Assembly: GCA_016179105.1 (NCBI GenBank)
Contig: JACOSB010000054.1
Location: 1 to 64,000, forward strand
Source of the DNA: Candidatus Acetothermia bacterium
GTDB lineage: Bacteria; Bipolaricaulota; Bipolaricaulia; RBG-16-55-9; DRXL01
DNA length: 64,000 nt
Reading direction: 5' to 3'
Positions 3,408 to 14,628 of the stretch are shown piece by piece. How positions within the stretch are numbered: the stretch's first letter is position 1; the number at the start of each line of letters is the position of its first letter. The notes below the pieces were generated by a model. That model did not search any database. It saw only the letters and a list, made by a program, of their open reading frames with translations, and was not told the DNA's origin. The position numbers and the translations under genes are program-made.

Positions 3408-4028
3408 ATGCGTAAAGCTACGATTCTAAGCGAAGCGAATCGAAAAAAACAGCTGATCTATCGAAAGGATTTGGAAGATGCGAATGTTTTAGCTAACCAA
3501 CGGCCGGAAGCATCGATGCTTTACAGATTGGAAGAAATTGCAGTCTTAGTAGAAGACCTTATGGGGATTGACGCACCCCGCGATGAAGACGGAAGAATTT
3601 TGGAAGTTCGACCCAAGGGTCACTGGTTTGAATTTGAAGTTGCGAAGCGCCTGGGATACAACTATCCTCCAGTAGCAGGGCTATTCCCTGATATTCGGCA
3701 TCAAGTTTTAGAAATCAAACATCATACAGGTAAGAGTGTAACTGTTGATTTTGGTCGTTATCATCCAGGTTCAGACGAAATTATCAATGAAGTTTGGAAT
3801 CAAGAACTACAGCTACACGTGAACGAAATTCGTTATTTGATAGCATTAGCTCCGCCGCCAGAACATAAGATCACTACGCTTATTCTCTTGACTGGAGCTC
3901 AAATTATGGATGTTTTTGGTGTTTCTCCTAAAGCAACTATCAAATATCAGATGGGGATCTCGAACCAATGGCGTGAAGAACACCGAGGTAAAATGCTTGT
4001 TGGAGAATCGGTTTGGCATTCATTATAA
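3408..4028 (+). CDS. Putative type II restriction endonuclease, PD-(D/E)XK fold
   Basis: A 206-residue protein immediately downstream of the adenine methyltransferase. Seen: the sequence FPDIRHQVLEIK, giving Asp at about 95 and Glu-X-Lys at about 102-104, the spacing of a PD-(D/E)XK nuclease core, with a preceding acidic helix (FEFEVAKRL, about 73-81) that may supply a further metal ligand. Known: many type II endonucleases have just this core and sit beside their methyltransferase. Inferred: it cuts the sequence that the upstream enzyme methylates; the recognition site cannot be read from sequence. Composition is A+T-rich like its partner, so both probably arrived together. I cannot name a restriction family. 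Confidence 0.75.
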   Translation: MRKATILSEANRKKQLIYRKDLEDANVLANQRPEASMLYRLEEIAVLVEDLMGIDAPRDEDGRILEVRPKGHWFEFEVAKRLGYNYPPVAGLFPDIRHQVLEIKHHTGKSVTVDFGRYHPGSDEIINEVWNQELQLHVNEIRYLIALAPPPEHKITTLILLTGAQIMDVFGVSPKATIKYQMGISNQWREEHRGKMLVGESVWHSL

Positions 4029-4071
4029 GCCATTAATATGAAGAGAGACATCAGTGTTCTAATTCATTCTC

Positions 4072-4160
4072 ATGTTCTTGTATGACCACATCGGCCAAAG
4101 CTACGACTCCACCCGCCGTGCTGACTCGTACATCCTCAGCCGCTAATCCACCACCTCAAC
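4072..4160 (+). pseudogene. Broken duplicate of the 5' end of the methyltransferase gene at 4663
   Basis: From an ATG at 4072 the frame reads YDHIGQSYDSTRRAD and then stops at TAA 4144-4146. The DNA from 4081 to about 4160 closely matches 4672-4752, the start of the intact SAM methyltransferase gene, with scattered substitutions. It is therefore either the stump of an older tandem copy or a duplication made when the DUF4258/DUF2283 genes between the two copies arrived. No product is expected. Confidence 0.8.
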
Positions 4161-4213
4161 GTTACATTTGCTGAACCTAGCAATAGGCTCGCATTTTTTG
4201 GTAAGGTTGCTAC

Positions 4214-4456
4214 GTGATTGAGTACGAGTTTTCTGAACACGCTTTTGATATGCTAAAGGAGAGAGATATCTCAGAGAACTGAGTGAAGTCAACTATTGAA
4301 GCACCCGATATAAAAGAATCCAAAGATGATGGCACTGTTCATTACATCAAATCGATCCAAGAACACGGTGGAAGATATCTACGTGTTGTTGTAAATCCTG
4401 ATGCAAAGCCTCAAAGGGTAGTGACGCTCTTCTTTGATCGTAGATTGAGGAGGTGA
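4214..4456 (+). pseudogene. DUF4258-type toxin gene with an in-frame stop
   Basis: Starting at GTG 4214 the frame gives IEYEFSEHAFDMLKERDIS, then TGA at 4280-4282, then continues in the same frame with RYLRVVVNPD and RVVTLFFDRRLRR to a TGA at 4454-4456. This is the layout of an 80-residue DUF4258 protein, a family of small RelE/BrnT-like proteins often paired with DUF2283. The TGA most likely replaced a TGG (Trp) codon. If UGA is not read through, the toxin is dead while the partner at 4459 remains intact. The AGGAGG at 4448-4453 at its 3' end serves as ribosome site for the next gene, so the two were co-translated. Confidence 0.8.
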
Positions 4457-4458
4457 AG

Positions 4459-4659
4459 ATGAAACTAAAAGTTGACCACAAGAACGATGCTTTGTACTTT
4501 CGACTTGACGAATCAGCGATTGTCGACTCTGAAGAGATAAAGCCAGGTGTGATTCTCGATTACGATGCCAATGACAATGTTGTCGGCATCGAAATCCTCA
4601 ACTTGAGCAAGCGTGTCTCTGCGGAGACGCTTAAAAGCTTACAGTTCGAAACAGCATAA
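4459..4659 (+). CDS. DUF2283 family protein, probable antitoxin of a DUF4258/DUF2283 module
   Basis: A 66-residue protein with the DUF2283 pattern: DALYFRLDE near residue 10, SEEIKPGVILDYDAND in the middle, and VVGIEILNLSKR near the end. The ATG at 4459 is preceded at five bases by AGGAGG. It follows the interrupted DUF4258 gene with a two-base gap, the usual order of this putative toxin-antitoxin pair. Since the toxin frame carries a stop, this antitoxin may be an orphan. The assignment to the family is firm; the antitoxin role is by association. Confidence 0.85.
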   Translation: MKLKVDHKNDALYFRLDESAIVDSEEIKPGVILDYDANDNVVGIEILNLSKRVSAETLKSLQFETA

Positions 4660-4662
4660 TAG

Positions 4663-5442
4663 ATGGCCACATATGACCACATCGGACAAAGCTACGACTC
4701 CACCCGCCGCGCAGACCCATATCTGCCCAGTCGTCTGATCCATCATCTCAATGCCAAGCCCGGCGATAAAATTCTCGATGTCGCCTGCGGCGCCGGCAAC
4801 TACACGATCGCTCTTGCACAAGCTGGACTCCAGATGCACGGGATCGATCAGTCCAGCGTCATGCTGGAATACGCCCGCAAGAAGAGCAACAGTCATTTGG
4901 TCCAGTGGCACCTCGGCGATGCTGAGCACATGCCCTTTGCCGATAAAACTTTCGTAGGCGCGCTCTGCACGCTCGCGATCCATCACTTCAACGACACGCG
5001 ACCGATCTTCGCCGAAGTCTACCGCGTGCTCGCGCGCGGGCGCTTCGTCATCTTCACCGCCGACCCAGAGCAAATGAAAAAGTATTGGCTCAATGTGTAC
5101 TTCCCCCAGATGATGTCTAAGTCAATCGCGCGAATGTCCATGCTAGCCGCAGTCGAACAGAATCTACGAAATGCAGGCTTTAAGGCCATCCACAAAGAAT
5201 CATTCAATGTGACCAACGAACTGCAAGATTTATTCCTCTTCAGCGGCAAGCATCGCCCCCAGATTTATCTAGACCCACGCGTGCGCGCGGGTATCTCTTC
5301 ATTCGCGGACCTTGCGGATGCAGATGAAGTTGAATTAGGATTGCAGCAGCTCGCAGCAGATATTGACTCCGGAAAAATTTCTGAAGTGATCGCAACGCAC
5401 CCCAACGAGAGCGATTATCTCTTCGTCATCGCTGAGAAGTGA
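4663..5442 (+). CDS. Class I SAM-dependent methyltransferase (UbiE/type 11-like)
   Basis: A 259-residue methyltransferase. Seen: the SAM-binding loop ILDVACGAGNYT near residue 38, an acidic residue at the end of strand 2 (GIDQS), and GDAEHMPFADKTF plus ALCTLAIHHF further on, the methyltransferase type 11 signature. The substrate is unknown. It begins three bases after the DUF2283 gene and is followed 14 bases later by a GNAT gene, so it may be co-transcribed with both. A partial copy of its first 90 or so bases lies at 4072-4160. G+C content is higher than in the restriction genes, suggesting it belongs to the original chromosome and the upstream block was inserted next to it. Confidence 0.88.
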   Translation: MATYDHIGQSYDSTRRADPYLPSRLIHHLNAKPGDKILDVACGAGNYTIALAQAGLQMHGIDQSSVMLEYARKKSNSHLVQWHLGDAEHMPFADKTFVGALCTLAIHHFNDTRPIFAEVYRVLARGRFVIFTADPEQMKKYWLNVYFPQMMSKSIARMSMLAAVEQNLRNAGFKAIHKESFNVTNELQDLFLFSGKHRPQIYLDPRVRAGISSFADLADADEVELGLQQLAADIDSGKISEVIATHPNESDYLFVIAEK

Positions 5443-5456
5443 TCTGAGGAGGTCTT

Positions 5457-5894
5457 ATGAAAACGCCATTTCGCATCCAGCGCTTGGGTCCGGGAGACAA
5501 AGAGAAGGCGTGTATGGTCGCTGAGATTCATAAATCGTTGCGCCCGAGCCGCGAGTACATGGCCGAGTTTCTCGCCAATCCCAGAAATTATCTGATCGTC
5601 GCTTATGTTGGTGAAGAGCCTACGGGATTTATCTTGGGATATGAGCTGCAGCGTGTCGACCGCCGGAACCCAATGATGTTTCTTTACGAAATCGGCACTT
5701 CTGAGAACCATCGCAGGAAGGGGATCGGACGCGCGTTAGTGAGTGAGCTCGATCGCATCTGTCGCGAGCGAAAATTTATGAAAATGTACGTCTTCACTGA
5801 CGAAGCCAATGTTGCTGCAATGGGTCTCTATCAAGCAACGGGAGGCAAGAGATCGCTTCCCGACAATGTCTTGTTTGGATGGCGTTACGACTAA
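5457..5894 (+). CDS. GNAT-family N-acetyltransferase, AAC(3)-I-like
   Basis: A 145-residue acetyltransferase. Seen: the acetyl-CoA binding motif HRRKGIGRALV near residue 85-95 (Q/R-x-x-G-x-G), preceded by the strand LYEIGTSEN and followed by a C-terminal TDEANVAAMGLYQATGG stretch. The closest resemblance I recognise is to aminoglycoside 3-N-acetyltransferase I-type proteins, which share the layout of strand, pyrophosphate loop and the AxxLY element. Many such chromosomal genes have no proven role in drug resistance, so the substrate is open. GAGGAGG lies just upstream of the ATG. It sits between the methyltransferase and the phosphoesterase with short gaps. Confidence 0.85.
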   Translation: MKTPFRIQRLGPGDKEKACMVAEIHKSLRPSREYMAEFLANPRNYLIVAYVGEEPTGFILGYELQRVDRRNPMMFLYEIGTSENHRRKGIGRALVSELDRICRERKFMKMYVFTDEANVAAMGLYQATGGKRSLPDNVLFGWRYD

Positions 5895-10408: not shown

Positions 10409-11431
10409 ATGCGCTGGTACACTCGCCCCGCCCTCGTCATCGCTAGTTGCACTAGTGTTTTATTGTTCAATCCTGCAACACAATCTTCTCTAAGCCAGAT
10501 CGAGCCCATCCAGCCCGACCCGGCCAATGCCCCCAAAATTATCTCCATCGAGTTCCCAGCACAGATCGTCCCCGACGGCAAAGCCGTCCAGGGCAAAGTG
10601 AACTTCGAAGCCCCCAAAGCCGACATCTATCAAGCCGAGTTCAAAATTTTGAAAGCGATCGACCCGAAAGATGGCAGCGACTCGCGCAACCGCTCCGAAC
10701 TCCAAGACATTACGTACGACCCTCGCATCAAAGGCCAGTCCAAGGGCAGTTTCCCGTTTACGATAAAAACTAAAATCGAGCAGATCGTGACGATCGCGAT
10801 CACGCTCAGCGGCGAGAGCTCGGGCCGTGGGCCATCCAAAGAGTTTTCGTTCACGGCTCTGATCCCGAGCAGCGTGGGCACGCTCAAGTGGAGCATTCAA
10901 ATCGGGACTTCGACGGCCTCGTCTCCCGCGATCGGCTCCGACGGAACGATCTATATTGGCTCGGACGACAACAAACTCTACGCAATCAATCCCAACAACA
11001 ACGTCAAATGGACATTCAGAACCAGCGACGACGTCGACTCTTCGCCCGCGATCGGCTCCGATGATGTGATTTACATCGGCTCGAACGACGGGAAAGTCTA
11101 TGCGCTTACGCCCGATGGGCGTCAGAAGTGGGCCTTCCCGACGCAAGATCGTGTACAGTCCACGGCTGTCATTGGCAACGACGGGACGATCTATGTTGGC
11201 TCGCAAGACCGGAGAATTTATGCGCTCAACCCCGAGGGGAGCTTAAAAATCACCTTCCCGCTCTCGGGCTCGATCGGAAATTCTTCCCCCACGATCGGGA
11301 GCGACGGGACGGTCTACATCGGCACCGTCGACGGGAAAATTCATGCGATTCTCAGCGTGAGCCAGAATATCGCGAGCTCGCCCTGGCCGATGTTCTTGAA
11401 CAATCCAAGACATACGGGATCGGCGAGATAA
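10409..11431 (+). CDS. Secreted PQQ-like beta-propeller repeat protein
   Basis: A 340-residue protein with an N-terminal signal peptide (basic start, then ALVIASCTSVLLF). Residues about 30-155 form an unrecognised, possibly Ig-like domain. From about 160 to 325 there are four repeats of the type SSPAIGSDGTIYIGSDDNKLYAINP, the blade pattern of PQQ/BamB-like propellers. Only about four blades are present, whereas complete BamB propellers have eight, so the ring may be completed by oligomerisation or by the N-terminal domain. A ribosome site (AAGGAGAG at 10394-10401) precedes the ATG. Its TAA stop overlaps the first base of a palindromic repeat at 11431. The role is probably an extracytoplasmic scaffold; I cannot assign an enzyme activity. 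Confidence 0.85.
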   Translation: MRWYTRPALVIASCTSVLLFNPATQSSLSQIEPIQPDPANAPKIISIEFPAQIVPDGKAVQGKVNFEAPKADIYQAEFKILKAIDPKDGSDSRNRSELQDITYDPRIKGQSKGSFPFTIKTKIEQIVTIAITLSGESSGRGPSKEFSFTALIPSSVGTLKWSIQIGTSTASSPAIGSDGTIYIGSDDNKLYAINPNNNVKWTFRTSDDVDSSPAIGSDDVIYIGSNDGKVYALTPDGRQKWAFPTQDRVQSTAVIGNDGTIYVGSQDRRIYALNPEGSLKITFPLSGSIGNSSPTIGSDGTVYIGTVDGKIHAILSVSQNIASSPWPMFLNNPRHTGSAR

Positions 11432-11490
11432 ACCGCCAAGACGCCAAGGACACAAAGACTTTTCTTGGCGCTCTTGGCGCCTTGGCGGTT
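11431..11490. repeat. Palindromic CCGCCAAG/CTTGGCGG repeat, copy 1
   Basis: A 60-base imperfect palindrome: it starts AACCGCCAAGACGCCAAGG and ends TTGGCGCCTTGGCGGTT. It begins on the last base of the upstream stop codon and ends 24 bases before rnpB. Related copies or single arms lie at 11941-12010, 12902-12921, 13311-13339, 13351-13374, 24417-24441 and 32082-32094. It can fold into a long hairpin and might end the upstream transcript. Confidence 0.9.
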
Positions 11491-11513
11491 CAATTCTGGT
11501 AAAATACTAACGC

Positions 11514-11923
11514 AAGAGGGGTAAAGGGCCGCAATCGTCTGAAAAGATGATTGAGGAAAGTCCGGACTCCATAGGGCCAGTCGCTCAACGAGACCCGGTG
11601 CACTTGTCGGTCAAGTTGAGAGGGAGTGATCCCTGGGCAGGCCACAGAAACCAGACCGCCAACGGCTCTTCTCGAAGAGCGCGGGCAAGGGTGAAAGGGT
11701 GGGGTAAGAGCCCACCGCCAACTCGGGTGACCGGGTTGTGGCTGGCAATCCTCCGGCGGGAGCAAGGCCAAATAGGCAGGCGTGCGTAGGGACAGTTCAC
11801 GAACTGCCCCTACCAACGGGCGGCCCGTCCAACGCTCGCAAGAGCGACGTCTGCGGGTAGGCCGCATAGATGGATGGCCCTTACGGAAATTTTTTCCGAC
11901 AGAATCCGGCTTACTCCCCTCTT
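11514..11923 (+). ncRNA. rnpB: RNase P RNA (bacterial type A-like)
   Basis: The catalytic RNA that matures tRNA 5' ends. Seen: the closing stem P1 formed by AAGAGGGG at 11514-11521 and CCCCTCTT at the 3' end; the universally conserved GAGGAAAGTCCGGACTCC near 11550-11567; GGGTGAAAGGGTGGGGTAAG around 11689-11708; GGAGCAAGGCCAAATAGG at about 11759-11776; and the 3' conserved ACAGAATCCGGCTTA. A TAAAAT -10-like element lies at 11500-11505. Length of about 410 bases is normal to slightly long. The extra length includes a palindromic repeat at 11786-11813 placed in the P16/P17 region. Palindromic repeats of another family bound the gene on both sides. Confidence 0.95.
11786..11813. repeat. GTAGGGGCG-family palindrome inside rnpB
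   Basis: A 28-base palindrome, GTAGGGACAGTTC / GAACTGCCCCTAC with a two-base centre and one mismatch. It belongs to the same family as copies at 28897, 32025, 32054, 43527, 48633, 54989, 59117, 60647 and 61478. Here it sits between the arms GCAGGCGT and ACGTCTGC that would form P16 of RNase P RNA, so it would add an extra hairpin to a peripheral region. Confidence 0.85.
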
Positions 11924-11940
11924 CGTTTTGTTTATTCGGA

Positions 11941-12010
11941 AACCGCCAAGGCGCCAAGAGCGCCAAGAAAAGTCTTTGAATTTCTTTTTGTCCTTGGCGC
12001 CTTGGCGGTC
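11941..12010. repeat. Palindromic CCGCCAAG/CTTGGCGG repeat, copy 2
   Basis: A 70-base inverted repeat beginning AACCGCCAAGGCGCCAAGAG and ending TTGGCGCCTTGGCGGTC. It lies 17 bases after rnpB and eight bases before the ATG of the VanZ-like gene, so rnpB is bracketed by two copies of this family. It could act as terminator of rnpB and as part of the leader of the next gene. Confidence 0.9.
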
Positions 12011-12404: not shown

Positions 12405-12521
12405 AGCCGCGGAGCAGCACGGAAAACACGGAATGAAGGCAAGTCGTTTTCAGTGACTTCCGTGATTCTATGTGGAACTCCTCTCGCTTCGTGTTATAAT
12501 CTGAGCGTTGGTCATTGACAT

Positions 12522-12885
12522 GGGGGTGCACCGGTTTCGACGGGGGTGCGGCAGGGAGGCTGCAGGCCGAGTTCTCCGTACACTCGCTAATCAGACGGAA
12601 AGGCATATAAATGCCAACAACTTTGCTGTTGCTGCTCCTTCCCTGAACTAAGCGAAGGAGCATGTTCTGGGTAGCGTTGGGCTCGTAGCGCTGCGCAGAA
12701 CACCGACTATACGGGCCTACCTCACGATCGGCCGCGGGCCGTGGGGGAATTCTTAAAGGCGGCTAGGGTCGGCTGATCTTGTCCGACGGGAGCGACCGAT
12801 CTGAACTTTAAAGCATCGGACTAAGCCTGTAGATGCCAAACGAAAGCACCTTCGGACGCGGGTTCGATTCCCGCCACCTCCACCA
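12522..12885 (+). ncRNA. ssrA: Transfer-messenger RNA with unusual tag end
   Basis: The RNA that rescues stalled ribosomes. Seen: 5' GGGGGTG pairing with 3' CACCTCC of the acceptor stem; the conserved CACCGGTTTCGACGGGGGTG at the 5' end; the T-arm GCGGGTTCGATTCCCGC; and an encoded CCA at 12883-12885. The resume codon appears to be GCC at 12613, giving the tag ANNFAVAAPSLN before TAA at 12649-12651, which lies in the loop of a GCTCCTTC/GAAGGAGC stem. Most known tags end in two alanines; here AVAA is internal and followed by PSLN. A TATAAT at 12495-12500 is a plausible -10 element. A repeat-flanked gene starts 14 bases after the 3' end. Confidence 0.95.
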
Positions 12886-12898
12886 CCGAGGACATCTT

Positions 12899-13303
12899 AT
12901 GAACCGCCAAGACGCCAAGATAGAACCAAGGTTTGAAATTGATGAGTGGGCCAGATTGGTTATTGGCGCTGCCATCGAGGTGCACAAGCATTTAGGACCT
13001 GGCTATCTGGAAAGTGTTTATGAAGAAGCACTGGCTATGGAGTTTAATTTGAGATCCGTACCCTTCGAACGACAAAAGCCAATAAATGTGACTTATAAAG
13101 GACAGCCTGTAGGCGAAAGCCGTCTTGATTTTTTGGTTGATGGATGTCTTATTGTAGAACTGAAAGCGGTAGAAGCTTTTGCTCCTGTGCATCAAGCTCA
13201 AGTCATTTCATACCTAAAAGCTATGAATCTTCAACTCGGTTTGCTCATTAACTTTAATGTCCCTATTCTCAAAGATGGCATTAAGAGAGTGGTGTTAACA
13301 TGA
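12899..13303 (+). CDS. GxxExxY family protein
   Basis: A 134-residue member of the GxxExxY family, named for the motif seen here as GPGYLESVYEEAL at about residues 36-48. Other family parts are present: LRSVPFERQKP, the D/E..K core RLDFLVDGCLIVELKAVE (a PD-(D/E)XK-like nuclease signature), and a C-terminal GLLINFNVPILKDGIKRVVL. The function of this family is not established. Remarkably the gene starts within a copy of the CCGCCAAG repeat: the ATG is followed by AACCGCCAAGACGCCAAGAT, which is translated as NRQDAK. A reverse copy follows directly after the stop. The TGA overlaps the ATG assigned to the nfeD frame. Confidence 0.88.
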   Translation: MNRQDAKIEPRFEIDEWARLVIGAAIEVHKHLGPGYLESVYEEALAMEFNLRSVPFERQKPINVTYKGQPVGESRLDFLVDGCLIVELKAVEAFAPVHQAQVISYLKAMNLQLGLLINFNVPILKDGIKRVVLT

Positions 13304-13339
13304 ATAAAAAATCTTGGCATCCTTGGCGCCTTGGCGGTT
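12902..13339. mobile_element. Putative repeat-bounded unit carrying the GxxExxY gene
   Basis: The left end AACCGCCAAGACGCCAAGAT (12902-12921) and the right end at 13311-13339 (ATCTTGGCATCC then TTGGCGCCTTGGCGGTT) are inverted copies of the same repeat and enclose the GxxExxY gene with little else. A further partial right end follows at 13351-13374. The unit lies directly 3' of the tmRNA gene, a common insertion place. The gene-free palindromes at 11431 and 11941 look like versions with the interior removed. That this is a mobile unit is inference; no target duplication or transposase is visible. Confidence 0.45.
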
Positions 13340-14628
13340 ATATGATGTTCGGCGTCCTTGGCGCCTTGACGGTTAGCTTAATGATCGTTGGGCTGAGTGG
13401 GCCAGTATTTGCCCAACAATTGGGACTGGTCAAGCTTGAGGCAACGATCAACCCCGTGACCAAAGACTTCATCGTTCGCGTGATCGACGAAGCGAATCGC
13501 GACGGCGTTGTCGCGCTGGTGATCCAACTCGACACGCCGGGCGGGTTGCTCGATTCCACCAAAAATATCATCGAAAAGTTTTACGAGTCGAAAATCCCGA
13601 TCGTCGTCTGGGTTGGACCATCCGGCTCACGCGCGGCGTCGGCGGGTTCGCTCATCACCCTTGCTTCTGATATCGCCGCGATGGCCAGCTCAACTTCGAT
13701 CGGCGCGGCTCACCCCGTAGGCCTCGGTGGACAAGCTCCCGACAAAGATGACCCCATGACGAAAAAAATAGAAAACTTTGCCTCGGCTGAAGCCCGTAGC
13801 ATCGCTGAGAAGCGCGGCCGCCCGGTCGATATTGCCGAAAAATTTGTCCGCGAAAGTCTCTCGCTCACCTCGACCGAAGCGCTCAACCAAAAAGTCATCG
13901 ATCTGCTGGCTGACAACTTGGGTGAACTCGCCAAGAAACTAAATGGTTTCAAACTCAAAGACGGCCGCACGCTCACGATCACTAATTTTAACTACAAAGA
14001 GTACACGATGACCTGGAAAGACCAGTTGATGAACTATCTGGCTGACCCGAACATCGTCTACTTCCTGATGTTGATCGGACTTTATGGGTTGATCGCGGAA
14101 GTTTTTTCGCCCGGACATGGCGTCGGTATTGCGGGCATCATCTGTCTCTTGCTCGCGTTTTTGGGGTTGCAAATCTTGCCCGTGAATATCGTCGGCATCG
14201 TCATGATCTTGGTCGGCGCGGGCATGATGGTCTTGGATATTTTTGCTCAGACCCACTTGGCATTGACAGCGGGAGGTGCCATCGCTTTGGTCTTAGGCTC
14301 GCTCTTCTTGTTCAATTTTGACGAATTTTCTTCACCGGCCTTTGAATTGCCTTGGACCACGATCCTCGTCACCGTCGGGGCAATCACCGCGCTCTTCGCT
14401 TTTATGATCACGAAAGGCTTGCTCATCCAGCGCAAGAAAGTGACGACGGGCATCGAGGGCATGGTCGGCGCGATTGGCCAAGCTCGGGATGATTTAGCTC
14501 CTGAGGGCATGGTTTTCGTCCAGGGCGAATACTGGAAAGCGCTCTCACAAGAAGGCTCCATTCGCTCAGGAGAAGAGATTACGGTCGAGTCGATGCGCGA
14601 CGGAAAGCTCCTCGTGCGCAAGCGTTGA
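13300..14628 (+). CDS. NfeD family membrane-bound serine protease (ClpP class)
   Basis: A protein of up to 442 residues with the full NfeD layout: signal/membrane segment, ClpP-like protease domain (about 45-230) with RAASAGSLITLASD holding the probable nucleophile Ser at about 114, then four membrane segments (about 255-375), and a C-terminal OB-fold NfeD domain ending in ITVESMRDGKLLVRKR. Relatives cleave stomatin-like partners; no stomatin gene is adjacent. Start is doubtful: the ATG at 13300 overlaps the previous stop, but its first 25 codons are repeat sequence (WHPWRLGGY, then GVLGALTV). The ATGs at 13342 and 13345 would still leave part of the signal peptide encoded by the repeat. Confidence 0.9.
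   Translation: MNKKSWHPWRLGGYMMFGVLGALTVSLMIVGLSGPVFAQQLGLVKLEATINPVTKDFIVRVIDEANRDGVVALVIQLDTPGGLLDSTKNIIEKFYESKIPIVVWVGPSGSRAASAGSLITLASDIAAMASSTSIGAAHPVGLGGQAPDKDDPMTKKIENFASAEARSIAEKRGRPVDIAEKFVRESLSLTSTEALNQKVIDLLADNLGELAKKLNGFKLKDGRTLTITNFNYKEYTMTWKDQLMNYLADPNIVYFLMLIGLYGLIAEVFSPGHGVGIAGIICLLLAFLGLQILPVNIVGIVMILVGAGMMVLDIFAQTHLALTAGGAIALVLGSLFLFNFDEFSSPAFELPWTTILVTVGAITALFAFMITKGLLIQRKKVTTGIEGMVGAIGQARDDLAPEGMVFVQGEYWKALSQEGSIRSGEEITVESMRDGKLLVRKR
13311..13374. repeat. Two right-end copies of the CTTGGCGG repeat at the start of nfeD
   Basis: Two partial copies in the same orientation lie at 13311-13339 (ending CCTTGGCGCCTTGGCGGTT) and 13351-13374 (GGCGTCCTTGGCGCC then TTGACGGTT). Both fall within the open frame of nfeD, and the second codes for part of the hydrophobic signal segment. 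Confidence 0.85.

Follow-up and report, generated by a model that had tools for sequence, protein, structure and literature searches.

A GxxExxY gene and its periodic inverted repeat as a probable gene–repeat system, examined from a Candidatus Acetothermia locus

The window analysed here is a stretch of 64,000 nucleotides (contig JACOSB010000054.1, positions 1 to 64,000 of the forward strand) from the Candidatus Acetothermia assembly GCA_016179105.1. In this window, a small gene of the GxxExxY family starts inside a repeat arm just behind the tmRNA gene, and reversed copies of the arm follow its stop codon. The question raised by this locus is whether the gene and the repeat are only neighbours or belong together. 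In our judgement they probably constitute one gene–repeat system that resembles REP/RAYT but is built on an unrelated nuclease.

The gene, its arms and the encoded protein

The GxxExxY gene (TIGR04256/PF13366; 12899–13303, forward strand), assigned by profile matches, encodes 134 amino acids, and its start codon lies 14 nt past the end of the tmRNA gene ssrA (12522–12885, forward strand), which is a neighbour outside the element. The ATG at 12899 is directly followed by the core of the class-1 upstream arm, AACCGCCAAGACGCCAAG (12902–12919, forward strand), and this arm encodes NRQDAK, that is, residues 2–7 of the protein. Downstream of the stop codon (13301–13303) there are two inverted arms on the reverse strand: the first (13312–13339) begins 8 nt past the stop codon, and the second, of the AACCGTCAAGGCGCCAAG type, occupies 13347–13374. 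Both are located inside the N-terminal part of an annotatable ORF for an NfeD-family membrane protease (13300–14628, forward strand) and overlap its first codons. The NfeD signal-peptide region (FGVLGALTVSLMIVG; window positions 13300–13440) is partly encoded by an inverted arm, so a repeat may supply an export signal. Further upstream, the gene for RNase P RNA class A (rnpB, 11513–11928, forward strand) is flanked by two class-1 palindromes without a gene, one upstream at 11431–11490 and the other immediately downstream at 11941–12010, with RNA-fold z-scores of −6.3 and −6.5, respectively; these palindromes share 38-nt perfectly complementary arms (11453–11490 and 11941–11978), with the RNase P RNA gene between them. 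The genome also has a second repeat family, the ATCACGGAANNCACGGAA class, and one of its palindromes is found at 12416–12466, upstream of ssrA. The first-pass annotation had described the gene start within the arm, the reversed arm behind the stop codon and the two gene-free palindromes; its coordinates for the gene and arms are correct to the base, and both palindromes are present as it described them.

As for the protein, it matches NCBIfam TIGR04256 with an E-value of 2e-44 (150.6 bits against a cut-off of 35) and Pfam PF13366 with an E-value of 9e-43. In an alignment of 45 sequences, G35, E38 and Y41 of the GxxExxY motif are invariant, as are D77, K89 and Y105, while E87 and Q101 are kept in at least 90% of the sequences; D77, E87-x-K89 and Q101-xxx-Y105 make up the motif set of the lambda-exo/Cas4/RecB nuclease group. 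The AF2 model of the window protein has a pLDDT of 92.8, and its nearest PDB folds in Foldseek form a consistent list (lambda exonuclease, LHK-exo, archaeal Cas4 and the AdnAB nuclease domain), with modest E-values of 2e-3 to 2e-2 and probabilities of about 0.9–1.0; a sequence search against solved structures gave no usable match. The match to the Cas4 profile is weak (E-value 0.0024), and since no cysteine is conserved among the columns of the 45 sequences (there is only one Cys in the window protein), the four cysteines that hold the Fe-S cluster of Cas4 are lacking and identity as a Cas4 was rejected. GxxExxY is thus best described as a predicted minimal PD-(D/E)XK nuclease of the lambda-exonuclease/Cas4/RecB type with an intact catalytic motif, and nuclease catalysis would be its activity; the PD-(D/E)XK-like core surmised earlier agrees with both the predicted fold and the intact motif residues. 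At four other loci (L052, L069, L074 and L079), the GxxExxY frame ends early and the remainder lies in another frame, which may reflect gene decay or else programmed frameshifting in a region common to them.

Pairing of genes and repeats across genomes

The first-pass annotation had staked its proposal of a mobile unit on a statistical link between the repeat and GxxExxY genes in other genomes, and such a link exists. Among 80 relatives taken from many phyla, a downstream inverted arm could be seen by eye after most stop codons. When a degenerate motif was used, both arms were present at 43/75 GxxExxY loci against 2/778 other ORFs in the same DNA, and the median of a motif-free inverted-repeat score was 25 at GxxExxY loci and 11 at control ORFs. 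The arm-encoded query peptide MNRQDAKI is present in none of the GxxExxY loci, which excludes a bias of the scan towards arms through this peptide. In one cyanobacterial order, 32 of 40 genes found by HMM have clear inverted arms by motif-free detection. The link is weaker in the phylum of the window genome itself, in which 9 of 28 loci, several of them partial or cut at contig ends, score at least 18. In general, the GxxExxY gene is nearly always boxed by inverted copies of the dispersed repeat of its own genome. In the open-licence literature (subscription journals may differ), we found no paper that ties GxxExxY to repeats, none that prints the six arm strings, and no named maker for such untagged short palindromes, which many genomes carry.

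The sequence of the arm depends on the clade of the protein. The arm types include ACCGCnnAG 9-mers, CRCAGATGAA 10-mers, CTATGATT, AATCCTG, ACGGATT, CACGGAA and GGAAGCCA, and they vary by GxxExxY clade. Mapped on a 133-protein tree, the merged repeat class shows 4 changes against 16.6 after shuffling, and the flavour within class 1 shows 28 against 55. Moreover, 73 of 87 arm pairs, against an expectation of 18.7, are of one flavour on both sides of their gene, and orthologous genes at one site can have arms of different flavours, yet the two arms of each gene agree. In the cyanobacterial order, where the protein clade was assigned from sequence alone and then compared with the flank class, clade 1 has class-1 flanks in 57/58 genes and clade 2 has class-2 flanks in 10/12 genes; clade 3, which is mixed, carries arm types peculiar to it in 18/30 genes, and several of the remaining clade-3 genes have ATCCGTG-type arms that are picked up by the class-2 pattern.

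The number of dispersed copies follows the same rule. With kinship ignored, the median number of class-1 copies is 44 in genomes with a clade-1 gene, 2 in those whose genes are all of other clades and 1 in those without a gene, and the corresponding medians for class 2 are 246.5 with a clade-2 gene, 0 and 0. The search with the class-3 pattern is noisy, and a distinct excess stands out in no more than a few genomes that carry the gene, for example G250, G129 and G149. The window genome itself contains two GxxExxY genes paired with two repeat families: the second gene (C53) belongs to another clade and has ATCACGGAA-class arms on both sides; this class has about 89 copies in the genome, the one at 12416–12466 being inside the window. 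In the phylum set of 100 genomes, the ATCACGGAA class is abundant only in the family of the window genome, where some members that carry it have no gene call, several of them being incomplete assemblies. Among 10 genomes of this family, class 1 has 85 copies in the window genome against 0–2 elsewhere, and only the window genome has a full-length gene with class-1 flanks.

These counts bear on the alternative that GxxExxY is a homing-type nuclease gene which entered, or was captured between, older palindromes that had spread by other means. In its favour, there are genomes rich in repeats yet without the gene: at least 10 class-1 copies occur in 17 and at least 10 class-2 copies in 5 of 78 gene-free genomes, many of the compared genomes being incomplete assemblies, so the gene is unneeded for keeping the repeats, or was lost, or was missed. 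The disparity between 1–6 gene copies and tens to hundreds of palindromes per genome points the same way, as does the presence of other genes between arms, for example a toxin–antitoxin-like two-gene cassette in the array of G182/G159. However, control ORFs are hardly ever boxed, and the tracking of the matching clade by the class copy number is not predicted by pure homing unless the repeats are also maintained; we regard homing as unlikely. In the cyanobacterial order set, four genomes (G143, G191, G209 and G259) each contain more than 100 class-2 repeats and no GxxExxY match, which may be due to recent loss of the gene or to another partner.

Dispersal, insertion sites and genomic setting

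In the 3.7 Mb window genome, which has only those two GxxExxY genes, the AACCGCCAAGACGCCAAG 18-mer is present in about 96 copies (up to 2 mismatches) and its reversed control in none, so the arm occurs far beyond chance. The comparison of 44 arms from 40 sites indicates that the arm has a sharp end at AACC, fades after about 29 bases and is composed of three tandem CGCCAAG-type units of 8–9 bp each; the third unit, which played no part in locating the 40 sites, is also conserved (73–89% at core positions). The consensus of the arm is AACCGCCAAG..., there are no conserved bases beyond it, and the flanks are unrelated from site to site, so that it is the short unit itself that is dispersed. Single half-arms are common. 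The gene-free palindromes have loops of 4–60 nt without gene remnants and are vastly more numerous than the gene-bearing copies, as is the case for MITE-like or REP-like copies, and to call them emptied versions of the unit, as had been done at first, is therefore too strong. Nor did any target duplication come to light: there is no excess of matching flanks among 38 palindromes. Many half-arms of the window genome (L210–L249) adjoin further dispersed palindromes, among them GGGGCGGTTCGCGAACCGCCCC and GGCTATTGGCTTTTGGC-type repeats, with which they lie nested in shared intergenic gaps; these are additional repeat families without a known partner.

In the window genome (G000), the arms prefer the 3′ ends of genes, 22 of 44 arm tips lying no more than 10 nt from a long ORF's stop codon (control 4.7%). 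Such a preference, together with the strong hairpins at rnpB, would also suit the explanation that the repeats are cis-acting RNA or DNA elements, such as terminators or stabilisers of mRNA ends, with GxxExxY as a regulator or processing factor. Against this, no T-runs of the terminator type are recognised behind the hairpins of this locus, half-arms alone are common, and neither the inverted boxing of the gene nor the use of unrelated repeats in each clade is explained, which makes this explanation quite improbable.

With regard to mobility, the whole unit has been gained at an orthologous site. The arm–gene–arm unit lies between trpE and trpG in three genomes, those of Undibacterium pigrum (L075) and of two relatives (93% and 83% identical over the query). 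Of the 30 best-matching family genomes, by contrast, 21 have the two genes overlapping or directly adjoining (spacing −3 to 0), and 5 have other trpE–trpG spacers. An insertion site that is occupied in an Undibacterium lineage and empty in most relatives was found, of the kind that the first-pass annotation had proposed to look for. A fourth genome has a 70%-identical GxxExxY gene at trpE–trpG with arms of its own, and at this junction a Methylotenera MAG (L078) also carries a gene, 61% identical, so the site is old or repeatedly used. Three genomes of the Undibacterium family (L359, L360 and L347) have yet another hairpin element at the trpE–trpG junction, with a degenerate repeat of roughly 40 nt of the trpE 3′ end that rebuilds the stop/start junction; this junction looks like a hot spot. 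The unit of Sphingomonas parapaucimobilis is located between fabD and fabG.

The movement of arms is slow. In two about 99% identical cyanobacterial genomes (about 290 kb), almost every arm has kept its position, whereas IS-like insertions of 1.28 kb differ between them, and only tandem arrays of palindromes of 74–76 bp differ in number. Two candidate differences in the G182/G159 pair were rejected as insertions: a palindrome found only in genome B, near A 115301, belongs to a complex replacement and is no clean insertion, and an arm found only in genome A, at 296814, is within a replaced stretch. The array of 74-bp palindromes in G182 (L194, about 3600–5700) and the matching part of G159 (L199–L204) holds small gene cassettes between its arms, one of which looks, by eye, like a pair of an antitoxin and a PIN-type toxin; these about 99% identical genomes are unequal in the number of array copies and of cassettes, and the whole has the look of a cassette array. 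Beside the GxxExxY gene of G182, a conserved DUF1156 DNA methylase gene (L194, about 1400–1630) contains two in-frame arms. They fall in loops that vary among homologues too, so that they are suggestive but no proof of in-frame arm insertion; in the Gloeocapsa homologue (L325), this loop holds a different insert of low complexity.

The cyanobacterial GxxExxY gene stands at stable syntenic sites. It was found on 8 of 72,556 plasmids, all called non-mobilizable, and in none of 50,697 phage records, and no relative occurs in 2.9 million viral contigs. The gene–arm unit is a resident of chromosomes, not of phages and hardly of plasmids. The strong cyanobacterial synteny would also fit mere hitchhiking, in which the gene and its flanks are co-inherited and alike in composition with no functional tie. 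This has very little probability, because arms at one orthologous site vary in flavour while those of one gene agree, because many phyla have this layout with repeats of unrelated sequence, and because copies of the same class are spread over the genome. An integrase-type island at ssrA with the gene as cargo, which the distance of 14 nt had brought to mind in the first-pass annotation, is next to negligible, in view of the 3′ end of ssrA being single-copy in the window, no integrase among the adjoining ORFs, and arms also behind rnpB and ordinary protein genes; the location beside the tmRNA follows from the preference of the arms for gene 3′ ends.

Proposed mechanism and comparison with known systems

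If GxxExxY and its repeat form one system, the protein, as a minimal PD-(D/E)XK nuclease, would be the trans-acting part, and the arm of about 29 bp would be its recognition sequence. A full unit would then be a gene bounded by two inverted arms, and the arms alone (the roughly 96 dispersed copies) would be hairpins or half-units placed preferably just past gene 3′ ends. The nuclease may cut or process the arms, either folded or as duplex, and thereby copy or maintain them; that it moves or maintains the repeat is plausible. The route of spread without target duplication might be a single-strand/hairpin or repair-coupled one and not DDE cut-and-paste, perhaps at replication forks or through repair-coupled copying, at a low rate. 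The arms around the gene may also provide its start region and 3′ end. More broadly, and somewhat short of an even chance in our estimate, GxxExxY could be a new cross-domain class of repeat-spreading enzymes, each with its own periodic inverted repeat in bacterial and archaeal genomes; such a class would be neither DDE, HUH, tyrosine/serine recombinase nor reverse transcriptase. If true, several large families of unexplained dispersed palindromes would be explained at once. The rule from clade to class names a candidate with an intact catalytic motif and predicts the target repeat of each protein.

For the Rickettsia palindromic elements and the small dispersed repeats of cyanobacteria, we know of no partner protein. 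They are likewise small, palindromic and dispersed, and are reported to lie between genes and sometimes in frame inside genes (Elhai 2008, cited in PMC3733652). With Cas4, lambda exonuclease and the RecB nuclease domain, GxxExxY shares the fold and the D..ExK..QxxxY motif, but it is much smaller and has no CRISPR or recombination operon context here; the window protein is a full member of the GxxExxY/PDDEXK_3 family (TIGR04256, PF13366), a family without an assigned role. The combination of a gene unit with terminal inverted repeats and many short gene-free copies is similar to that of MITEs and their parent IS (PMC10969869). Insertion at a site empty in relatives (trpE–trpG) is a further likeness to such a pair; unlike it, the present unit has no DDE transposase and no target duplication found, no remnants of a gene remain in its gene-free copies, and its half-arms are common.

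The closest counterparts are the REPtrons of REP/RAYT (TnpA_REP), which are also chromosomal, with one or a few gene copies bounded by an inverted dispersed palindrome, an extragenic repeat in tens to hundreds of copies, and protein clades that co-vary with repeat classes (PMC8266576, PMC2817692, PMC3686654). Two differences separate them: RAYTs are HUH Y1 tyrosine transposases whereas GxxExxY is a PD-(D/E)XK nuclease by prediction, and REPs are tagged (GTAG) whereas the arms here are untagged, with neither GTAG nor CGTC at the palindrome end in the consensus of 44 arms, and consist of tandem 8–10 bp units of many unrelated sequences. The widespread GxxExxY family would thus gain a role, and, if spreading holds, a second, non-HUH kind of REP-like system would stand beside the REPtrons.
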